Source: Crossiella sp. CA-258035
GTDB lineage: Bacteria; Actinomycetota; Actinomycetes; Mycobacteriales; Pseudonocardiaceae
DNA length: 64,000 nucleotides
Reading direction: 5' to 3'
Assembly: GCF_030064675.1 (NCBI RefSeq)
Contig: NZ_CP116413.1
Span: forward strand, 2,140,001-2,204,000
Notes under the pieces: model-generated
What the model saw: the letters and a program-made list of their open reading frames with translations, nothing else
Database searches by the model: none
What the model was told of the DNA's origin: nothing
In this document: positions 31,174-60,154 of the stretch, in pieces
Numbering within the stretch: the stretch's first letter is position 1
How the letters are laid out: each line of letters starts with the position of its first letter
Translations under genes and position numbers: made by a program

Positions 31174-31228
31174 CCCGACCACCCACATGCACGGCGCCCC
31201 GGCAGGCGCGGACCCCAGCCGGGGCGCC

Positions 31229-31395
31229 GTGTTGGCCGTTGTCGTACCTCGTGTTGGCCGAAGTCGTACGCAGTGTTGGCCGTTCCGGACCTCGTGTTGG
31301 CCCCGCGGTGCCGACTTCAGCCAACATCCCGTACGAGTTCGGCCAACACGGGGTACGACTTCAGCCGAGACCCTGTACGAGTTCGGCCAACACGG
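31229..31395. repeat. Inverted array of 21-22 bp GTGTTGGCCG repeats (locus A)
   Basis: Units begin GTGTTGGCCG and continue with TTGTCGTAC, AAGTCGTAC or TTCCGGACC. Direct units start at 31229, 31251, 31273 and 31294. From about 31310 the units run in the opposite orientation (GTACGAGTTCGGCCAACAC and variants), giving four reverse units up to 31395. The array fills the gap between the convergent lipoprotein and membrane-protein genes. Related arrays lie at 38034 and 59920, and one 21-base unit is identical at 31273 and 59942. Transcribed, the opposing units could fold into a long hairpin acting as a two-way terminator. Confidence 0.8.
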
Positions 31396-31399
31396 CGGG

Positions 31400-41527: not shown

Positions 41528-42571
41528 ATGTCCGTGGCGCACGCGCACCGCGAGCTGGACGGCCTGCGCTGGGCCGGGCTGAGCGGGCCCCGCCTCGAGG
41601 TCTTCCGCGCGCTCGGCGAGGAGTACCGCGCCGAGATCGCCGAGGCGGTGCACTCGCTGCCGGAGTGGCCCGCGCTGGACCGCTACGCCCGCACCGACAC
41701 CGGCCTGGTCCGGCTGTCCAGGCTCAGCGCGCTGACCAGGGTGAACCACGCTCAGGAATATGCCGAGCTCGCGGCGATGGCCCAGGGCGCGAACCAGTCC
41801 GAGCGAACCCTGCTGCTGGTCAACCTGCGCGGCGACCTGCCCGCGCAGGCCAGCAGCGCGGGCTGTTCGGACCTGGCCTGGCCGGGCCGGGTGTTCGCGC
41901 ACAACGAGGACGGCGGCGCCGAGCTGGCCGGCCGTCTGCTGCTGGTCACCCTGGACTGCGCGGGCGAGGTCCCGGTCACCGCGCTCTGGTACCCGGGCAT
42001 GCTGCCCAGCAACGCCTTCACCCTGACCGGCCACGGCCTGGTCTTCGGCCTGGACCACCTGCCGGTGACCGAACCGGCCATCGCACCGGGCAGGCACTTC
42101 GTGGCCCGCGCGGTGCACCGGGCCCGGGACCTGGACGAGGCCGTCCGGCTGCTGACCGAGCTGCCTTCCGCCGGCGGGTTCGCCTACAACCTGGCCGAGC
42201 TGCGCACCGGCCGGGTCGCGCACGTGGAGGCCGCGGCCGGGTCGAGCGCGGTCGAGGAAGCGGGGGAGGGCCCGTTCTGGCACACCAACCACCTGCGCCA
42301 CCTGGACCTGCCCGAGCTGGTCACCCGGTCCAGCCGGGAGCGGGCGAAGGTCCTCGACGCCCTGGAACCGCCCGCCGAGCCGGATGTGGAGTGGTTCCTG
42401 GACGTGCTGACCAGCCCGCACCCGCGCGGCGTCTGCCGTCAGCCGGCCGAAGGCGACACGGCCACCCTGGCCACCTGCGTGGTGGACCTGGCCGCGGCGG
42501 AGCTGACCGTGGTGCCCAGCAGCGGAAAGCGCTTCACCTGTTCGGTGGCCGCCGCGCTGGCCGGACCGTGA
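41528..42571 (+). CDS. C45-type N-terminal nucleophile hydrolase (acyl-CoA:6-aminopenicillanate acyltransferase family)
   Basis: The 347-residue protein has the family's autoprocessing site AGCSDLAWPGRVFAHNEDGG, in which Cys113 would become the N-terminal nucleophile after cleavage behind Gly112. TALWYPGMLPSNAFTLTGHGL and RAVHRARDLDEAVRLLTE are also family-like. Relatives hydrolyse or transfer amide bonds of penicillins, N-acyl amino acids and peptides; the substrate here is unknown. GGAGGGGG precedes the ATG. It is divergent from the methyltransferase gene and convergent with the PucR unit. Confidence 0.8.
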   Translation: MSVAHAHRELDGLRWAGLSGPRLEVFRALGEEYRAEIAEAVHSLPEWPALDRYARTDTGLVRLSRLSALTRVNHAQEYAELAAMAQGANQSERTLLLVNLRGDLPAQASSAGCSDLAWPGRVFAHNEDGGAELAGRLLLVTLDCAGEVPVTALWYPGMLPSNAFTLTGHGLVFGLDHLPVTEPAIAPGRHFVARAVHRARDLDEAVRLLTELPSAGGFAYNLAELRTGRVAHVEAAAGSSAVEEAGEGPFWHTNHLRHLDLPELVTRSSRERAKVLDALEPPAEPDVEWFLDVLTSPHPRGVCRQPAEGDTATLATCVVDLAAAELTVVPSSGKRFTCSVAAALAGP

Positions 42572-42701
42572 CGCGCCACTGGACCGCCCGGACGGCAAGG
42601 GCGAGGAAGACGAAGCCGCCGATCAGCGCGAGGGTGTAAGGCAGGTTGGCCACGAGCGGAATGGTCGGGCCGCCGACCGGTCGCGGTGAACCCCCGTTCA
42701 C
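42534..42701 (-). CDS. Small single-span membrane protein encoded after the PucR gene
   Basis: A 55-codon frame starts at a GTG at 42701, 15 bases after the PucR stop, with GAGG just upstream. The protein has one strong membrane helix (IPLVANLPYTLALIGGFVFLALAVRAVQW) between a Gly/Pro-rich head and a short basic tail. It overlaps the 3' end of the convergent hydrolase gene by 38 bases. It could be a genuine small membrane protein of the PucR operon or the decayed end of a lost permease gene. No homologue is recognised. Confidence 0.4.
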   Translation of the reverse strand: MNGGSPRPVGGPTIPLVANLPYTLALIGGFVFLALAVRAVQWRVTVRPARRPPNR

Positions 42702-42716
42702 GCCTCGTTGACGCCG

Positions 42717-44264
42717 CTACCAGCGATCTTTACGCGATCCTTGCGCCGGCAGCGCGGCCAGCGCGACGGTCAGGGCCAGCCGCTGGTCGGCTTCGTCCAG
42801 GCGCAGCGCGGTCAGCTGCTCGATCTTGCGCAGCCGGTAGCGCAGGGTGTTGGGATGCACGGCGAGCCTGCGCGCGGCGGCCTTGCCGTCGCCACCCGCG
42901 GCCAGCCAGGCGCGCAGCGTGGCGAGGTAGTCGGTGCCGTGCTCGGTGTCCTGCCGGAGCAGGTCGGCCACCGGCCCGCGCGTGGGCAGCCGCCCGGCCT
43001 CGGCCGCGGTCCGCAGCCGCAGCAGCAACACCTGCGCCCAGTGCTCGTCGTAGTCCACGGTGTCGGTCTCAACCAGCCCCGCCACCCGCGCCGCCAGACA
43101 CTCCTCGGCCTCCAGCCGGCTGGCGGGAAGGTCGCCGGGGTTGGCCCGCCCGCCGATCCCGGCGTGCACGGCCACGTCGGCGGGCAGCTCCCGCAGCAGC
43201 GAACGCAGCCAGTCTCGCGCCGGGTTGTCATCGGGCAGCACGGTGTAAAGAACGTTGCCGAGCAACGCGCTGCGCCCGGGCCGCGACCAGCCGAACCCGG
43301 AGGTGGCCCGCTCGAAGGCGAGCAGCGCCGCCCCGTGCTCGTTCATCCCGGCGTGCGCGTGCAAGGCGACCACCCGCAACGCCCCGGCGGCCAGCCCCAG
43401 CCGCGACAACGTGCCCGGCGCGTCCGCGGTCCCGTCCAACAGACTCAGCACCGCATCGGCTTCGGCCCGCCGCTCCAGATCAGCCCCCGCACGGGCGCGC
43501 AGCAGGTGCAGTGCCGCAGTGCGCGCCCCGTCCACCATGGCCGAGTGCGCCTGCGGCCGCACCGGCGGCGTCACCTCGACCCACACCGACCCAAGAAGTT
43601 CCCGCCCAGCCCGAATAGCCACGATCAGGCGACCCAGCAACCCAGGCGTCAGCGCCGGCACCAGCAACGGCTCGTCCGAGTTGGCCAGGTGCTTGAACAC
43701 GCCGTGTTCTTCCAGGGCCTTGAGCACATCCGGCGGCACCCGCCGTCCAAGAATGGTCTGCACCCGCGCCGCGTCCACGTCCTCCTGCCGGTTGGAGTAG
43801 GCCAGCACCCGGGACTGGAGATCCTCGATGGTGACCGGCCCGCCCACCACCGCCGCGATCGCATCCGCCACCGCGAACAGGTCCCCCGGCACATCCCGGC
43901 TGGGCCCCTGCCCACTGAGCACCAACGTGTGAATCAGCCCCGCCAGATGACTCCAAGGCACCGCAGGATCAACCATCAACACGGCCGCTCCGGAACTCCG
44001 AGCCGCGGCCAGCACCCGCTCGTCCAGCTCCGGCGGCCCGTGCAACACCACGGCCGCGGCGGTAGTCCCCCGCACCAGCCGCGCCGCCGCCGTCACCGAC
44101 CCGGTGCCGATGCCCAGCAACACATCGGTCGGACTGGTCGGATGCGACTCGGTCGGATCATGCAGCGACAACCCCCGCAGCTCAACCTCCCGCCCCCGAG
44201 GCGCACAACCCAGCCGAGTGCCCAGCCCGCCAAGTACATCGACCAGTCGCTCAAGCGTGACCAT
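42717..44264 (-). CDS. PucR family transcriptional regulator
   Basis: The ATG at 44264 gives 515 residues. The N-terminal PucR-type sensory domain (VTLERLVDVLGGLGTRL, DVLLGIGTG) is followed by a central GGDEF-like region and the C-terminal helix-turn-helix LAVHPNTLRYRLRKIEQLTALRL. Such regulators activate purine, amino-acid or glycerol-type catabolic genes. Its start lies inside the end of the CGNR gene (14-base overlap), so the two regulators share one message. The target could be the C45 hydrolase or the small membrane protein. Confidence 0.84.
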   Translation of the reverse strand: MVTLERLVDVLGGLGTRLGCAPRGREVELRGLSLHDPTESHPTSPTDVLLGIGTGSVTAAARLVRGTTAAAVVLHGPPELDERVLAAARSSGAAVLMVDPAVPWSHLAGLIHTLVLSGQGPSRDVPGDLFAVADAIAAVVGGPVTIEDLQSRVLAYSNRQEDVDAARVQTILGRRVPPDVLKALEEHGVFKHLANSDEPLLVPALTPGLLGRLIVAIRAGRELLGSVWVEVTPPVRPQAHSAMVDGARTAALHLLRARAGADLERRAEADAVLSLLDGTADAPGTLSRLGLAAGALRVVALHAHAGMNEHGAALLAFERATSGFGWSRPGRSALLGNVLYTVLPDDNPARDWLRSLLRELPADVAVHAGIGGRANPGDLPASRLEAEECLAARVAGLVETDTVDYDEHWAQVLLLRLRTAAEAGRLPTRGPVADLLRQDTEHGTDYLATLRAWLAAGGDGKAAARRLAVHPNTLRYRLRKIEQLTALRLDEADQRLALTVALAALPAQGSRKDRW

Positions 44265-44844
44265 GCGCGGCTCCCTGCCGTCCGCGCTGCTTGGCCCGGT
44301 TGCCACACCGCTGCATCGAGCACCAGCGCCGCTGACCGGGCCGGGAGGTGTCCACGAAGATCAGCTCGCAGTCACTGCCCGAACAATGCCGAACACGGTC
44401 GATGTAGGGCCCCCCGAACAACTCAATGGCATCCCTGGCAAAGGCGGACAACACGGCCGCCCCGGCAACCGGCTCCTGCCACTGCCGCCCATTGCTGGTC
44501 AACTTGGGCACCGGCGGCGGCGCGGCGGCCAACCGGTTCCAGTCGGAGAAGTGCACCCGCCGAATCGGCTCACGCCGCGCGGCCCGAACCGCACACTGCC
44601 AGACAGACTCCCGCAACTTCTTCAGCTCACCCAGCTCCGCAGCGCTCAACTCGATCCGCGCCTTACCGAACCGGGTGTCGGTCAACCACCGCCGGAAGTC
44701 CTCAACCTCACCCAGCACCTCCCAGGTGCCGCGCTCATCCTCCCCACTGCTGACCAGCAACTCCAGACACAACGCACCAGGATTGAACCGATACCGCTGC
44801 CCGTCATGCCCAACCATCGGCAGCCCAACCGCCTCGTCACCCAT
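44251..44844 (-). CDS. CGNR zinc-finger (ABATE) DNA-binding protein
   Basis: The 197-residue protein starts at the ATG at 44844 with MGDEAVGLPMVGHDG. It has an ABATE-type N-terminal domain and the C-terminal zinc finger VRHCSGSDCELIFVDTSRPGQRRWCSMQRCGNRAKQ, whose CGNR motif and four cysteines are intact. Such proteins are putative ligand-responsive regulators. It is the first gene after the 19-bp repeat array, so its promoter must lie inside or at the edge of that array. Confidence 0.83.
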   Translation of the reverse strand: MGDEAVGLPMVGHDGQRYRFNPGALCLELLVSSGEDERGTWEVLGEVEDFRRWLTDTRFGKARIELSAAELGELKKLRESVWQCAVRAARREPIRRVHFSDWNRLAAAPPPVPKLTSNGRQWQEPVAGAAVLSAFARDAIELFGGPYIDRVRHCSGSDCELIFVDTSRPGQRRWCSMQRCGNRAKQRGRQGAAHGHA

Positions 44845-44850
44845 ACCCGC

Positions 44851-45557
44851 CACCCTAACCGGTATAACCGGTACCCACCCCTCAAACCGGTAGCCCCACT
44901 TAAACCGGTTACCACCGGTCGTACAGACGGCCACCACCGATACAGGTGAACACCACTTGCCAGGGCGACCACCACTCGTGCACCCAGCCACCACTCACAA
45001 GGCCGACTGCCACTCAGAGAGTCGCCCGCCACTCATACGGTTGGTCAGTCGCCACGCACTCGGCCGCCACCCGCGAGCCTGACCTCCACCCGCGACGTTG
45101 CCCTCCGCCCGCGACGTGCCCTCCGCCCGCCACATTGGCCTCCGTCCTCGGCCTTGGTCGCCGCCCTCGGTCTTGGTTGCCACTCGCGAGATGGCCTGCA
45201 TCCGCGCCGTTGGCCGCCATTCGTGCGGTCGATCGCCGCTGGTGGTCGGCAGCCCTCAAGTGGTTGATCAGCGGTCGCCATGCTGGCCGCCACCCCGCAC
45301 GGTTGATCACCGCTCGCACGGTCAGCCACCGGCCGTGCCGGTGGCCACCGGTCATAGCAGTGCCCACCGGTTTAAGCGGTATTCACCGGTTAAACCAGCG
45401 GGCACCCGTTAAACGGGGACGCACCGGTTGGACCGGTGTGCATCGGTTGAACCGGTGTGAGCCGGTTTAACGGGTGCCCGCTGGTTAAAGCGGCGCGTCC
45501 CGGTCTAACCGGCACGCCCGGTTGAACCAAGCGCCCGGTTTGGACCGGTACTTCCGG
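44851..45557. repeat. Degenerate tandem array with a 19-bp period (about 32 units)
   Basis: Anchoring on the core CCACTC/CACCGG, successive units start at 44972, 44991, 45010 and 45029 on the left. On the right, cores start at 45346, 45365, 45384, 45403, 45422, 45441, 45460, 45479 and 45498. These are steps of exactly 19 bp; a few units elsewhere are 17, 18 or 20 bp. The right third (45340-45557) keeps the unit TGNNCACCGGTTNAACCGG, which is itself nearly palindromic. Similar AACCGG boxes recur at the left edge (44855-44920), while the central units have drifted to GCCGCCACTCG-like sequence. Because 19 is not a multiple of three, no frame can be conserved, and the region appears non-coding. 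Confidence 0.85.
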
Positions 45558-45939
45558 CGCTCTCAAAGGCGCCCACCTGCCCGCCTCTCCTGTCCACCTC
45601 GCCGGCCCGTTGGCCCTGGCAGCCCGACCCGCCCATCCGCCCGCCTGCCGATGGCCCCACCCACCCGGTCTGCCCGCCCTGCCCGGCGGCACCGCCGCCC
45701 TGCCTGCCCGTTCATCCCGGCCTGCCCTTCCTCCCCGCCTGCCCGCCTGCCCCGCTCGCCTGACCTGTCCGGCTCACCCCGCTCGCCCGGCCTGCCCGGC
45801 TCGCCCGGCTGCGCGCTCGCACCGCTTACCTAAGCGCCCGCCCGAACACCCCCACCCCGCGCTCGCCCAGCCCGCCCCAACCTGCCGATCCCCGCCCCAC
45901 CCGCAAGCACCCCCGCGCCACCGGCCTACTGTCGCGGAC
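45558..45939 (+). other. C-rich, strand-asymmetric intergenic tract
   Basis: This 380-base stretch on the plus strand is dominated by C and by short motifs such as CCTGCCCG, CCCGCCTGCC and GGCTCGCCCGG at irregular 9-12 base spacing. G is much rarer except in CCGG contexts. Open frames through it encode only Pro/Ala/Arg-rich low-complexity strings with no start or ribosome site, so I call no gene. Together with the 19-bp array it makes a 1.1-kb gene-free block before the next ATG at 45940. Confidence 0.6.
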
Positions 45940-46497
45940 ATGACACAGGTTCCGGTCTGGGTGCCGGTGGTCGTGGGGCTGCTGGGGCTCCTCGGTGTGC
46001 TCGGCGCCCAGTTCATCGCCGCCTGGCGGGAGGACCGCCGGTGGAACCGGGAGAAGCGCCGGGATGAGGACAACAAACGATTTGACGCCCGGCGTGAGGC
46101 TTATGCCCAGGTGATCGGCGCACTGGAGTCCTGGGACTGGGTGATGCACCCGCACAAGGACAAGGCGCGCGGGGTGGACTTGGTTATCGGCGAACTCGAA
46201 CTTGTCGATCTGCGCACAGCCTGGATCGAAGCCAAGAATGTGCTTGGCCTGATCAATCTGGTGGGTACCCCCGAGATTCGGGATTTGTTGCGCACCGCAA
46301 TGATTTCACGGTCCCGGCTCTCCCGTGAACTGACCCGGCCCGACAAGGACGGCATCCGGCTGGAGCTGGTCGAAAAGTACTGGTCCGAAGCCCAGGACAC
46401 CTATGCGCGACTGCGCAATCTCATGCGGTCGGATCTCGGCTTCGAAGCTGTCGATCCCAAAGGCTCTCCCGCCCGGCCCGACCTGGTGGAAAGATGA
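45940..46497 (+). CDS. Membrane-anchored coiled-coil-like protein of unknown function
   Basis: The 185-residue protein has a single N-terminal membrane helix (WVPVVVGLLGLLGVLGAQFIAAW, residues 6-28), then a highly charged helical segment (REDRRWNREKRRDEDNKRFDARREAY) and a mostly helical cytoplasmic part. The codon pattern becomes AT-richer in the second half (around 46060-46270) than in neighbouring genes. The layout resembles phage- or actinomycete-type membrane-tethered proteins of unknown role. It is 19 bases ahead of the DUF3099 gene. Confidence 0.65.
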   Translation: MTQVPVWVPVVVGLLGLLGVLGAQFIAAWREDRRWNREKRRDEDNKRFDARREAYAQVIGALESWDWVMHPHKDKARGVDLVIGELELVDLRTAWIEAKNVLGLINLVGTPEIRDLLRTAMISRSRLSRELTRPDKDGIRLELVEKYWSEAQDTYARLRNLMRSDLGFEAVDPKGSPARPDLVER

Positions 46498-46516
46498 CGA
46501 AAGGAGGTGGTGTCGG

Positions 46517-46834
46517 ATGACCACACATCGGGACGGCACCCCGGTCCTGATCACTGAGGCGCAGCAGTCCTACGAGGACCAGTTCGCGGCTCGGAAGCGC
46601 AAGTACTTCCTGATGATGTCGATGCGTATCCCGTGCCTGGTGGCGGCCGCGGCCTGCTACCAGATCCCGTGGCTGGCGATCGGTCTGCTGGTGTTGTCGG
46701 TGCCGCTGCCGTGGATGGCGGTGCTGATCGCCAACGACCGCCCGCCGCGAAAGGCGGAGAAGGTGAACCGGTTCCGGCGGGTGCGTGACGATACCGCCAT
46801 CGAATCGAAACAACATCCTGTAATCGAGGGCTGA
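46517..46834 (+). CDS. DUF3099 membrane protein
   Basis: The 105-residue protein matches the actinobacterial DUF3099 pattern: PVLITEAQQSYEDQFAARKRKYF, then MMSMRIPCLVAAAACY and two membrane helices ending LPWMAVLIANDRPPRK. AAGGAGGTGG, a near-perfect ribosome site, precedes the ATG at 46517 and makes this start secure. The function of the family is unknown. Confidence 0.82.
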   Translation: MTTHRDGTPVLITEAQQSYEDQFAARKRKYFLMMSMRIPCLVAAAACYQIPWLAIGLLVLSVPLPWMAVLIANDRPPRKAEKVNRFRRVRDDTAIESKQHPVIEG

Positions 46835-46954
46835 TCTCCACCCGGAGTGGCGGTATGGTTACGTTCCGCTCAATCACAGGGGGCTCAGGTGGACGGTGCG
46901 GAAACTCGCCCAGTAGTTGTAGGTGCGGAAACTGGTCAGAGTCCGAGGTCAGGG

Positions 46955-47518
46955 ATGTGCGGAGCGATCCATTGGGACCGGACCAACGACCTGGTCGTCG
47001 GGAACTTCACCGCGGCGCAGGCCAGTTGGCTCCGGCGGCACCTGTCCGGGTTCGCCTCACTGGTGCAGTGGCGAATGGATCAGTACCACACGGACTACCC
47101 GCTCGGTGCTGAGCTGGGCCTGCCGCTGCCGACCGAGGCCACCGAGGACCGCAGGCTGAACGCGATCCTGGACTGGCACTGTTGCGAGGAAGAGTCGGAA
47201 GAGGTCCGCCTCTGGCACGAGCCGGACCTGTTCGCCGGTCTGTACAAGGACATCAACCTGGTGTGGGCGACGCTGCCCGAGCGCGGCGGCATGGTCGTGC
47301 TGCGCGAGGAACGCCACATGCGTGCCTGGTTCCGGGTGCTGCTCGACTACCGGATCACCGCGGCGATCAGCTGGCGGGTGCCGGATGCGATCTACGACCT
47401 GCGCCGGGAACAGCCCGAGGCCGGCGACGAGCTCGGCCGCGCGTTCTACCTCACCACCTGGCTGTGGGACGTGGCGCACGAACTGGCCGAGATCAGCAAG
47501 ATCACCGTTTCGCGCTGA
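46955..47518 (+). CDS. DUF2017-like protein
   Basis: From the ATG at 46955 (GAGG upstream) the protein is 187 residues; a longer frame from 46847 is possible. FTAAQASWLRRHLSGFASLV at the start and MRAWFRVLLDYRITAAISW in the second half resemble the actinobacterial DUF2017 pattern. No catalytic motif is recognised. The family call is tentative. Confidence 0.55.
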   Translation: MCGAIHWDRTNDLVVGNFTAAQASWLRRHLSGFASLVQWRMDQYHTDYPLGAELGLPLPTEATEDRRLNAILDWHCCEEESEEVRLWHEPDLFAGLYKDINLVWATLPERGGMVVLREERHMRAWFRVLLDYRITAAISWRVPDAIYDLRREQPEAGDELGRAFYLTTWLWDVAHELAEISKITVSR

Positions 47519-47774
47519 CGCACCGCGGATTCTCCGCCCGGGTATCCGCTGTAGCACCCAGCGCACACTGACGTCGCGGCCGCGCTCGATGCCCCGCCCG
47601 CACCGAGCGCCCCGCCATCACCCGCTGCCAGGATCGCGCGGGGCCGCCCGCCCAGCGGCCGACACCGCATCGCCTGCCCCGCAGTCGCGCCGCCCGCGCC
47701 ATCGGCAGCCAGCGCCGGGGCCGTGCCGCCCGCCCGGTCGAGCGGGCCACGCCACCAGCTCCGCACCCGCCCGC
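47519..47774. other. Gene-free stretch between convergent genes
   Basis: The 256 bases between the DUF2017-like gene and the pseudouridine kinase gene are GC-rich and hold several short palindromes. I see no start with a ribosome site and no repeat family. It probably contains terminators for the two convergent transcripts. Confidence 0.4.
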
Positions 47775-48674
47775 TCAGCCCCGCACGTTCAGCGGACTCG
47801 GCGGCTGCGCACCCACCACCTGCACCGCCCGCGCCCCAGCCGCCACCCCGGCCGCCAGCGCCGCCGCGATCTCCGACCCGCCCCGCCAGGCCGCCAGCAG
47901 CCCCGCGTTGAAGGCATCGCCCGCGCCGGTGGAGTCCACGCAGTCCACCACCGGGGCGTCCGCGTTCACCGTCGCGTCGGCCGCCACCCAGTGCGCCCCG
48001 CCGTCGCCCGAGGTCACCGCCACCGCACCGACCACCGCCAGCAGCTCCCGCGCCGACTCCGGATCCGTGGACCCGGTCAGCACCGCCAGCTCGTCCGCGT
48101 TCGGCAGCAGCAGGTCGACGCCGGCCACCAGCTCCAGGAACCTCGTCGCGCCCAGCCGGGTGATCAGTGTGGCGGCCTGTGGGTCCACCGAGGTGGTCAG
48201 GCCCGCCGCCCGGGCCGCGGCCAGCGCCGCCACGCCCGCGGGGCGCGAGCCCTCGTCGAGCAGGACGTAGCCGGACAGGTGCAGGTGGTCCGCGCCGAGC
48301 AGGGCGCTGGGGGCGATGTCGGCGGGGGACAGGCGGGCGTTGGCGCCCCGGTCGGGCAGCATGGTGCGCTGGCCGGCCTCGTCCACCAGGACCACCACAC
48401 AGCAGGTCGGAGCGCTCTCATCGACGACCAGCGCGGTGGTCACGCCCGCCGCGTCGAGTTCCGCGCCGACCCGGTGACCGGCGATGTCGCCGCCGATCCG
48501 GCCGATCAGCACCGCCTCGGCCCCGCAGTGGGCGAGCCAGGCCGCGGTGTTCGCGCCCGCGCCGCCGACCACCATGCGCACCGCCGAGCGGGTGTCGCCG
48601 CCGTGCACCAGGGGTCCGTCGTGCCGGGCCACCACGTCCAGGCCGGCATCGCCGACCACCACGATCCGCGCCAT
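47775..48674 (-). CDS. psuK: PfkB-family pseudouridine kinase
   Basis: The 299-residue protein has PfkB features: the N-terminal GGAGANTAAWLAHCGAEAVLIGRIG and the C-terminal catalytic signature DSTGAGDAFNAGLL with its base aspartate. By itself it could be any ribokinase-family enzyme. The gene before it, one base away, encodes pseudouridine-5'-phosphate glycosidase, which identifies the substrate as pseudouridine. It phosphorylates free pseudouridine for breakdown to uracil and ribose 5-phosphate. Confidence 0.82.
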   Translation of the reverse strand: MARIVVVGDAGLDVVARHDGPLVHGGDTRSAVRMVVGGAGANTAAWLAHCGAEAVLIGRIGGDIAGHRVGAELDAAGVTTALVVDESAPTCCVVVLVDEAGQRTMLPDRGANARLSPADIAPSALLGADHLHLSGYVLLDEGSRPAGVAALAAARAAGLTTSVDPQAATLITRLGATRFLELVAGVDLLLPNADELAVLTGSTDPESARELLAVVGAVAVTSGDGGAHWVAADATVNADAPVVDCVDSTGAGDAFNAGLLAAWRGGSEIAAALAAGVAAGARAVQVVGAQPPSPLNVRG

Positions 48675-59919: not shown

Positions 59920-60154
59920 GTGTTGGCCGATCTCGCACAGTGTGTTGGCCGTTCCGGACCTCGTCTTGGCCGAAGCGGACGCCGTGTTGGCCGATCTCGT
60001 ACCGGGCGTTGGCCGTCCCGGGACGGTCGCTGTCCGTTCCTGACATACCCGGCCTCCGCCGCCAGACCCGTTCGCTGCGCCATCCGGGCTACCTCTACGG
60101 CCAACCGGGCGTACGACTTCGGCCAACACCCTGTCCACTTTCGGCCAACACTCG
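59920..60154. repeat. Inverted array of 21-22 bp GTGTTGGCCG repeats (locus C)
   Basis: Direct units begin at 59920, 59942, 59963, 59984 and (variant GCG) 60006, with 21 or 22 bp spacing. After a 70-base spacer, reverse-complement units such as GTACGACTTCGGCCAACAC occur at 60094-60109, 60111 and 60133. The unit GTGTTGGCCGTTCCGGACC (plus two bases) at 59942 is identical to the one at 31273. The array separates the helicase gene from the xylose importer, both on the plus strand. Confidence 0.8.

Follow-up and report, generated by a model that had tools for sequence, protein, structure and literature searches.

A 19-bp tandem array beside the gene of an ABATE/CGNR zinc-finger regulator in Crossiella sp. 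CA-258035 is probably a minisatellite that grew from the regulator's own autoregulatory operator, with edges that are still box-like and a middle that has drifted. We read it as a grown operator because its unit matches a box that footprinting places just ahead of CGNR genes, and matches the 19-bp geometry of the operator in congeners. Such an array would give bacterial satellite DNA a traceable origin, namely a promoter box of the same locus in relatives that was multiplied in one species. The stretch analyzed, here called the window, comprises 64 kb (positions 2,140,001 to 2,204,000 of NZ_CP116413.1, GCF_030064675.1) of a 9.17-Mb genome (G000); Crossiella is a genus of Pseudonocardiaceae. 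The relatives compared were a second genome of the same species (G041) and three congeners (G001, which is S99.2, G002, and G003), making five Crossiella genomes in all. The features are listed in Table 1.

Table 1. Coordinates of the array, its parts, and the neighboring genes (window positions unless a locus is named)
Feature	Position	Strand	Remarks
Whole 19-bp array	44855..45556	.	About 37 unit positions, each a 15-bp box plus a 4-bp spacer
CGNR-proximal box ACCGGTTATACCGGT	44858..44872	-	Covers the presumed -10, 13 bp upstream of the ATG; score 18.2
Other left-edge boxes	44877..44947	-	Starts 44877, 44895, 44933; scores 12.2, 15.3, 12.9
Drifted interior	45062..45308	.	19-bp register kept; boxes scoring at least 9 absent
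Right-edge block, 11 units	45309..45517	+	Boxes of at least 9.0 at 45366, 45385, 45404, 45423, 45442, 45461
22-bp perfect inverted repeat	45393..45486	.	Arms 45393-45414 and 45465-45486; G041 lacks it
Hypervariable C-rich tail, free of the 19-bp period	45557..45900	.	Between the array and the 45940 gene
ABATE/CGNR zinc-finger regulator gene	44251..44844	-	197 aa; PF07336 5.1e-18, PF11706 2.7e-16
Next gene to the right	45940..46497	+	185 aa; occurs in G041, G001, and G002 too
AlkZ-like DNA glycosylase gene, divergent from CGNR	L010 2126-3187		Found in two congeners

The period proposed in the sequence-only reading for 44851-45557 is real. Autocorrelation against 200 dinucleotide shuffles gave an identity of 0.571 at lag 19 (z 18.3), far stronger than in shuffled sequence, with harmonics at lags 38 (z 12.3), 57 (z 8.7), and 76 (z 7.7), and lag 19 exceeded the top z of any shuffle in all four sub-blocks of the array. 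By the same autocorrelation no 19-bp period extends into 45557-45900, where lag 19 lies under the mean. From 44872 to 45556, a phase-tracking parse counted about 37 units, in place of the approximately 32 first read, and four one-base slips of register. Adjacent units, one period apart, are 57% alike overall, and Tandem Repeats Finder, which that reading had recommended, reported only fragments of the array. The two edge motifs that it had described, AACCGG boxes on the left and the ACCGGTT-N-AACCGGT core on the right, are present, and it was right that the block is not a protein repeat: the unit has 19 bp, and gaps of 1, 4, 19, 20, 40, and 91 bp relative to G041 break any frame.

The left neighbor had been taken for a CGNR regulator, in agreement with the two Pfam matches in Table 1. 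Its protein is 97% identical between the two strains, and 20 synonymous and 6 non-synonymous differences among 198 codons indicate that the gene is intact and constrained. A PucR-type gene (42717-44306) runs in the same direction and overlaps it slightly. A solved member of the ABATE/CGNR family is described as a dimer with a treble-clef zinc finger that likely binds DNA (PMC2954205). Among the papers listed under the family's names, no title or abstract opening announces a binding site.

Footprinting of CGNR loci from other genera revealed where the unit may come from. From 224 loci with CGNR relatives we kept 80, and 78 of these lie outside Crossiella. A few bases before the start codon stands a 15-bp dyad box, ACC-N9-GGT, with the TATA of the presumed -10 inside it; a strict expression for it matched in 27 loci. 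With training and test sets kept apart and matrices built from proximal boxes only, the best upstream box was above the 99% level set by random windows at 62 of the 78 non-Crossiella loci (46/62 and 16/16 in the two parts of the split), which are related to each other and are not 78 independent cases; the other 16 did not pass. Two boxes 20 to 23 bp apart occur in 14 of the 78. The divergent neighbor varies between genera (VOC-like, SRPBCC-like, RidA-like, or GNAT-like in a survey of 15 loci by eye, in which several frames were unreadable and one locus gave nothing), so the box appears to go with the CGNR gene itself.

A symmetric matrix served to score the window; of the 28 distinct non-Crossiella sequences behind it, 7 are doubtful because second boxes were admitted under a loose rule. 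In the 64 kb, 18 positions score at least 9.0: 10 fall inside the 707-bp array and 8 elsewhere, one of which (44849) overlaps the first box. The two top scores of the window stand at the two edges of the array (19.0 at 45366 and 18.2 at 44858), and the six right-edge boxes follow one another at exactly 19 bp. The array, then, carries the motif of CGNR genes of other genera and adjoins the CGNR start, as the boxes do in G001 and G002; its proximal box is identical in the alignment with G041. Around the four CGNR paralogues of G000, three regions have no match above 8, and in the fourth a match scoring 11.5 stands some 600 bp ahead of the gene match. The suggestion that a protein binds at fixed spacing fits this origin of the unit from a dyad box upstream of CGNR genes, and on these matches the CGNR protein is the best candidate for the binder. 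ACC-N9-GGT is accordingly offered as a testable candidate operator for the ABATE/CGNR family.

The geometry of the array has its counterpart in the congeners. In G001 and G002, whose CGNR proteins are 71 to 72% identical to that of G000, a divergently oriented neighbor of the CGNR gene encodes an AlkZ-like DNA glycosylase (PF06224, E 1.9e-49 in G001; the G002 protein is 96% identical to it). Between the two start codons lies a palindromic promoter, ACCACTATAACCGGT-GCAC-ACCGGTTATAGTGGT, made of two inverted 15-bp boxes and a 4-bp spacer. Its repeat distance of 15 + 4 = 19 bp is the period of the G000 array. Neither G000 nor G041 has an orthologue of the glycosylase (best match 35% identity, elsewhere in the genome). 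The array and its tail fill the place of that gene and reach the conserved start region of the 45940-46497 gene, which in G001 and G002 stands after the AlkZ-like gene and whose protein has no Pfam match at E 0.01. In G003, the remaining genome of the genus, the nearest match to CGNR has E 4.7e-8, too weak for a close orthologue. Judging from the two congeners, the two-box promoter would be the older state. Moreover, the 10 left-edge units resemble the left box of S99.2 and the 11 right-edge units the right one, by a difference of 2.1 matches (permutation p 0.005), which fits growth from an inverted pair of boxes. The same comparison in G041, which is not independent of G000 and includes one unit out of register, gave a difference of 1.6 (p 0.024).

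From these observations, we propose the following course of events. The ancestor would have had a divergent promoter that served the CGNR and AlkZ-like glycosylase genes through a pair of inverted dyad boxes, each of 15 bp and set at a distance of 19 bp. The glycosylase gene was presumably lost in this species, and slippage or unequal exchange would have multiplied the unit of box and spacer at the vacated site. Dimers of CGNR are predicted to bind the ACC-N9-GGT boxes; the proximal one, covering the -10, would repress the CGNR and PucR genes, and the outer edge boxes might act as extra sites that take up CGNR or aid side-by-side binding. The interior would meanwhile drift and turn over in copy number.

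To see how the array behaves between strains, it was compared with G041. Substitutions amount to 12.3% in the left part, 17.5% in the middle (45076-45308), and 15.7% in the right part, against 9.4% at third codon positions of the genes to the left, 3.8% in those to the right, and 5.2% overall. Since a divergence of 12 to 17.5% exceeds that of the third codon positions beside it, most of the array seems weakly constrained. These positions served as the reference because the 3.6% divergence of the non-coding class is too low for true intergenic DNA. The tail is more variable than the array, with 33% substitutions and nine gaps. Gaps in the array measure 20, 91, 20, 40, and 19 bp, plus 1, 1, 4, and 1 bp; those of 91, 20, 40, 1, and 4 bp fall in the middle, and most of the copy-number difference sits in the drifted interior. 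Copy number thus differs in the manner of a VNTR, as judged from two strains. As an observation in its own right, third-codon divergence from G041 over 41528-48674 shifts across the array, from the higher value on its left to the lower on its right, and this shift could mark a recombination boundary.

Spacing is indeed conserved better than sequence, as the first reading had it, and selection on spacing was considered as the cause. BLAST gives the array 0.120 indels per substitution, and MAFFT 9 gaps for 106 substitutions; the figure for other non-coding DNA, a class defined by a rough gene call that accounts for 72% of the window and misses the CGNR, PucR, and other genes, is 0.042. Relative to substitutions, indels are no less frequent in the array than in this class, so its regular register can persist without selection, and selection on spacing is not supported. 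The companion idea of an old satellite decaying from the middle fits too: the middle has drifted from the box, and some middle units of G041 resemble one another, as would happen in a satellite with turnover in that part.

The evidence for selection on the boxes themselves is mixed. Among aligned boxes scoring above 9, the right edge has 5 in G000 and 6 in G041 where random substitution would leave about 2 (p 0.003), and the left edge has 4 in each where it would again leave about 2 (p 0.062), in a simulation that takes G000 as the ancestor and so overstates selection. Changed sites are distributed as 23 of 165 in boxes versus 9 of 44 in spacers in the MAFFT alignment (p 0.35), and as 24 of 165 and 14 of 44 when units are paired by hand. 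Substitution showed no relation to the information of the matrix (rho 0.008), and a subset of columns chosen by us was slower (4/66 versus 28/143, p 0.012).

These figures bear on what the array does now. One reading, possible if somewhat doubtful in our view, accepts the same origin and takes the array to be inert: a neutral minisatellite seeded by an operator, in which no more than the one or two boxes of the CGNR promoter count, the remainder being repeat DNA that decays in space freed by gene loss. The excess of substitutions over nearby third codon positions, the copy number that differs between two strains of one species, and the indel ratio all agree with it, as do the low scores of the interior, where no unit between 44948 and 45365 reaches 9 with the box matrix, and the position of the right-edge boxes, some 465 to 575 bp from the next gene and more than 500 bp from the CGNR start. 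The persistence of edge boxes in both strains beyond random substitution speaks against it, in a test biased towards selection. The opposite reading, which we consider unlikely, is a working bank of operators, in which some ten edge boxes would bind CGNR dimers at 19-bp steps as a filament or a local sponge, copy number would tune the autoregulatory loop, and strains would differ in switch threshold by slippage after the AlkZ-like repair gene, once under this operator, had been lost. We likewise think it unlikely that the distal boxes have a function today. If the boxes are bound, the locus would offer a natural system for how the number of operators shapes autoregulation.

Since the units are palindromic, they might also work as a structured nucleic acid, with transcript hairpins or DNA cruciforms, an explanation that we regard as very improbable. 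The right block does fold far better than shuffles (z -9.8; whole array, z -5.8), and in G000 the 22-bp inverted repeat was reached by only 2 and 5 of 300 unit-based nulls and the folding energy by none of 100 in either of two runs. In G041, however, the longest inverted repeat has 13 bp, a length reached by 140 and 248 of 300 nulls, and the folding energy was reached by 7 and 27 of 100. In addition, covariation of the dyad among units was not significant (p 0.06, 0.73, and 0.24), and 44000-46500 has no Rfam match at the gathering score. A function as a hairpin was set aside after the comparison with G041, the one relative in which stem covariation could be sought, and where none appeared.

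Dyad sites at fixed spacing resemble iterons, centromere-like sites, and nucleoid-condensing sites in general, and the array has such sites. That it is an element of this kind, as the sequence-only reading had entertained, and is bound by a protein other than CGNR gained no support and seems to us scarcely credible: the unit is explained by the box that precedes CGNR genes of other genera, the array occurs in one species among 297 genomes of the family, and no replication or partition protein appears among the five neighboring proteins with a Pfam match (PucR HTH_30, ABATE/CGNR, DUF3099, AAT, and PfkB).

The rarity of the array was established by pattern searches. The ideal box-N4-box, at three mismatches or fewer, was found in 2 of the 297 genomes, both of this species, at 6 places per strand in G000 and 5 in G041 (one of the latter in apparent coding DNA). 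A backward control pattern matched once per strand in 4 of the 297, so single matches at three mismatches mean little alone; many matches at one locus carry weight. Across the phylum, the pattern was present in 1 of 396 genomes, G000 itself, in a draw that did not contain G041. No second operator array emerged from the pattern searches or among the 42 matches listed by the DNA search, and no title among the literature matches listed concerns genome repeats in Crossiella.

Several candidates for a second array were rejected. The one at 7373772 (and C82 of G041) falls within a LigT/2'-5' RNA ligase-like gene, where a 9-bp repeat is part of the coding sequence. Such a gene, at L047 2336-2932 on the minus strand, has an in-frame 9-bp repeat (Thr, Gly, Ser) whose DNA resembles the array. 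Scattered matches to one or two boxes lie in DNA that looks coding. From the reading frames, we take those at G000 4247311, G041 C1 288747, and G041 C45 227692 to be polyketide synthase acyltransferase-like coding DNA, that at G001 C20 8942 to be gcvT-like, and those at G002 9931753 and G001 C19 36628 to belong to a signal peptidase-like gene.

Compared with known systems, the array shares with the autoregulatory operators of dimeric one-component regulators of the ABATE/CGNR type a dyad box that lies next to the regulator gene and covers the presumed -10. Those operators elsewhere have one or two boxes, whereas the array has about 37 unit positions, 10 of which score at least 9.0. Like bacterial minisatellites (VNTRs), it consists of tandem units and differs in length between strains mostly by near multiples of 19 bp. 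It departs from them in having a unit whose origin is traceable to a defined promoter box that relatives have at this locus, and from a young VNTR in that neighboring units of the latter are much more alike than the 57% seen here at lag 19. Iterons and centromere arrays are repeated protein-size sites at fixed spacing; the array shares this layout, and differs in lacking a replication or partition gene among the neighbors searched and in its restriction to one species. The presence of many possible sites for one regulator also recalls decoy sites that titrate a transcription factor (a subject of PMC7505660, among others); any titration here would be putative.

A separate repeat family was noticed elsewhere in the window. 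Its 22-bp units, with a GTGTTGGCCG core, form short arrays at 31228-31398 and 59920-60150, with one half in either orientation, and the copy at 31235-31398 is missing from G041. Paired GTGTTGGCCG cores, sought on both strands with at most two mismatches, number 0 to 4 in each of the other 56 genomes searched, and 300 in G000, 209 in G001, 715 in G002, and 291 in G003.
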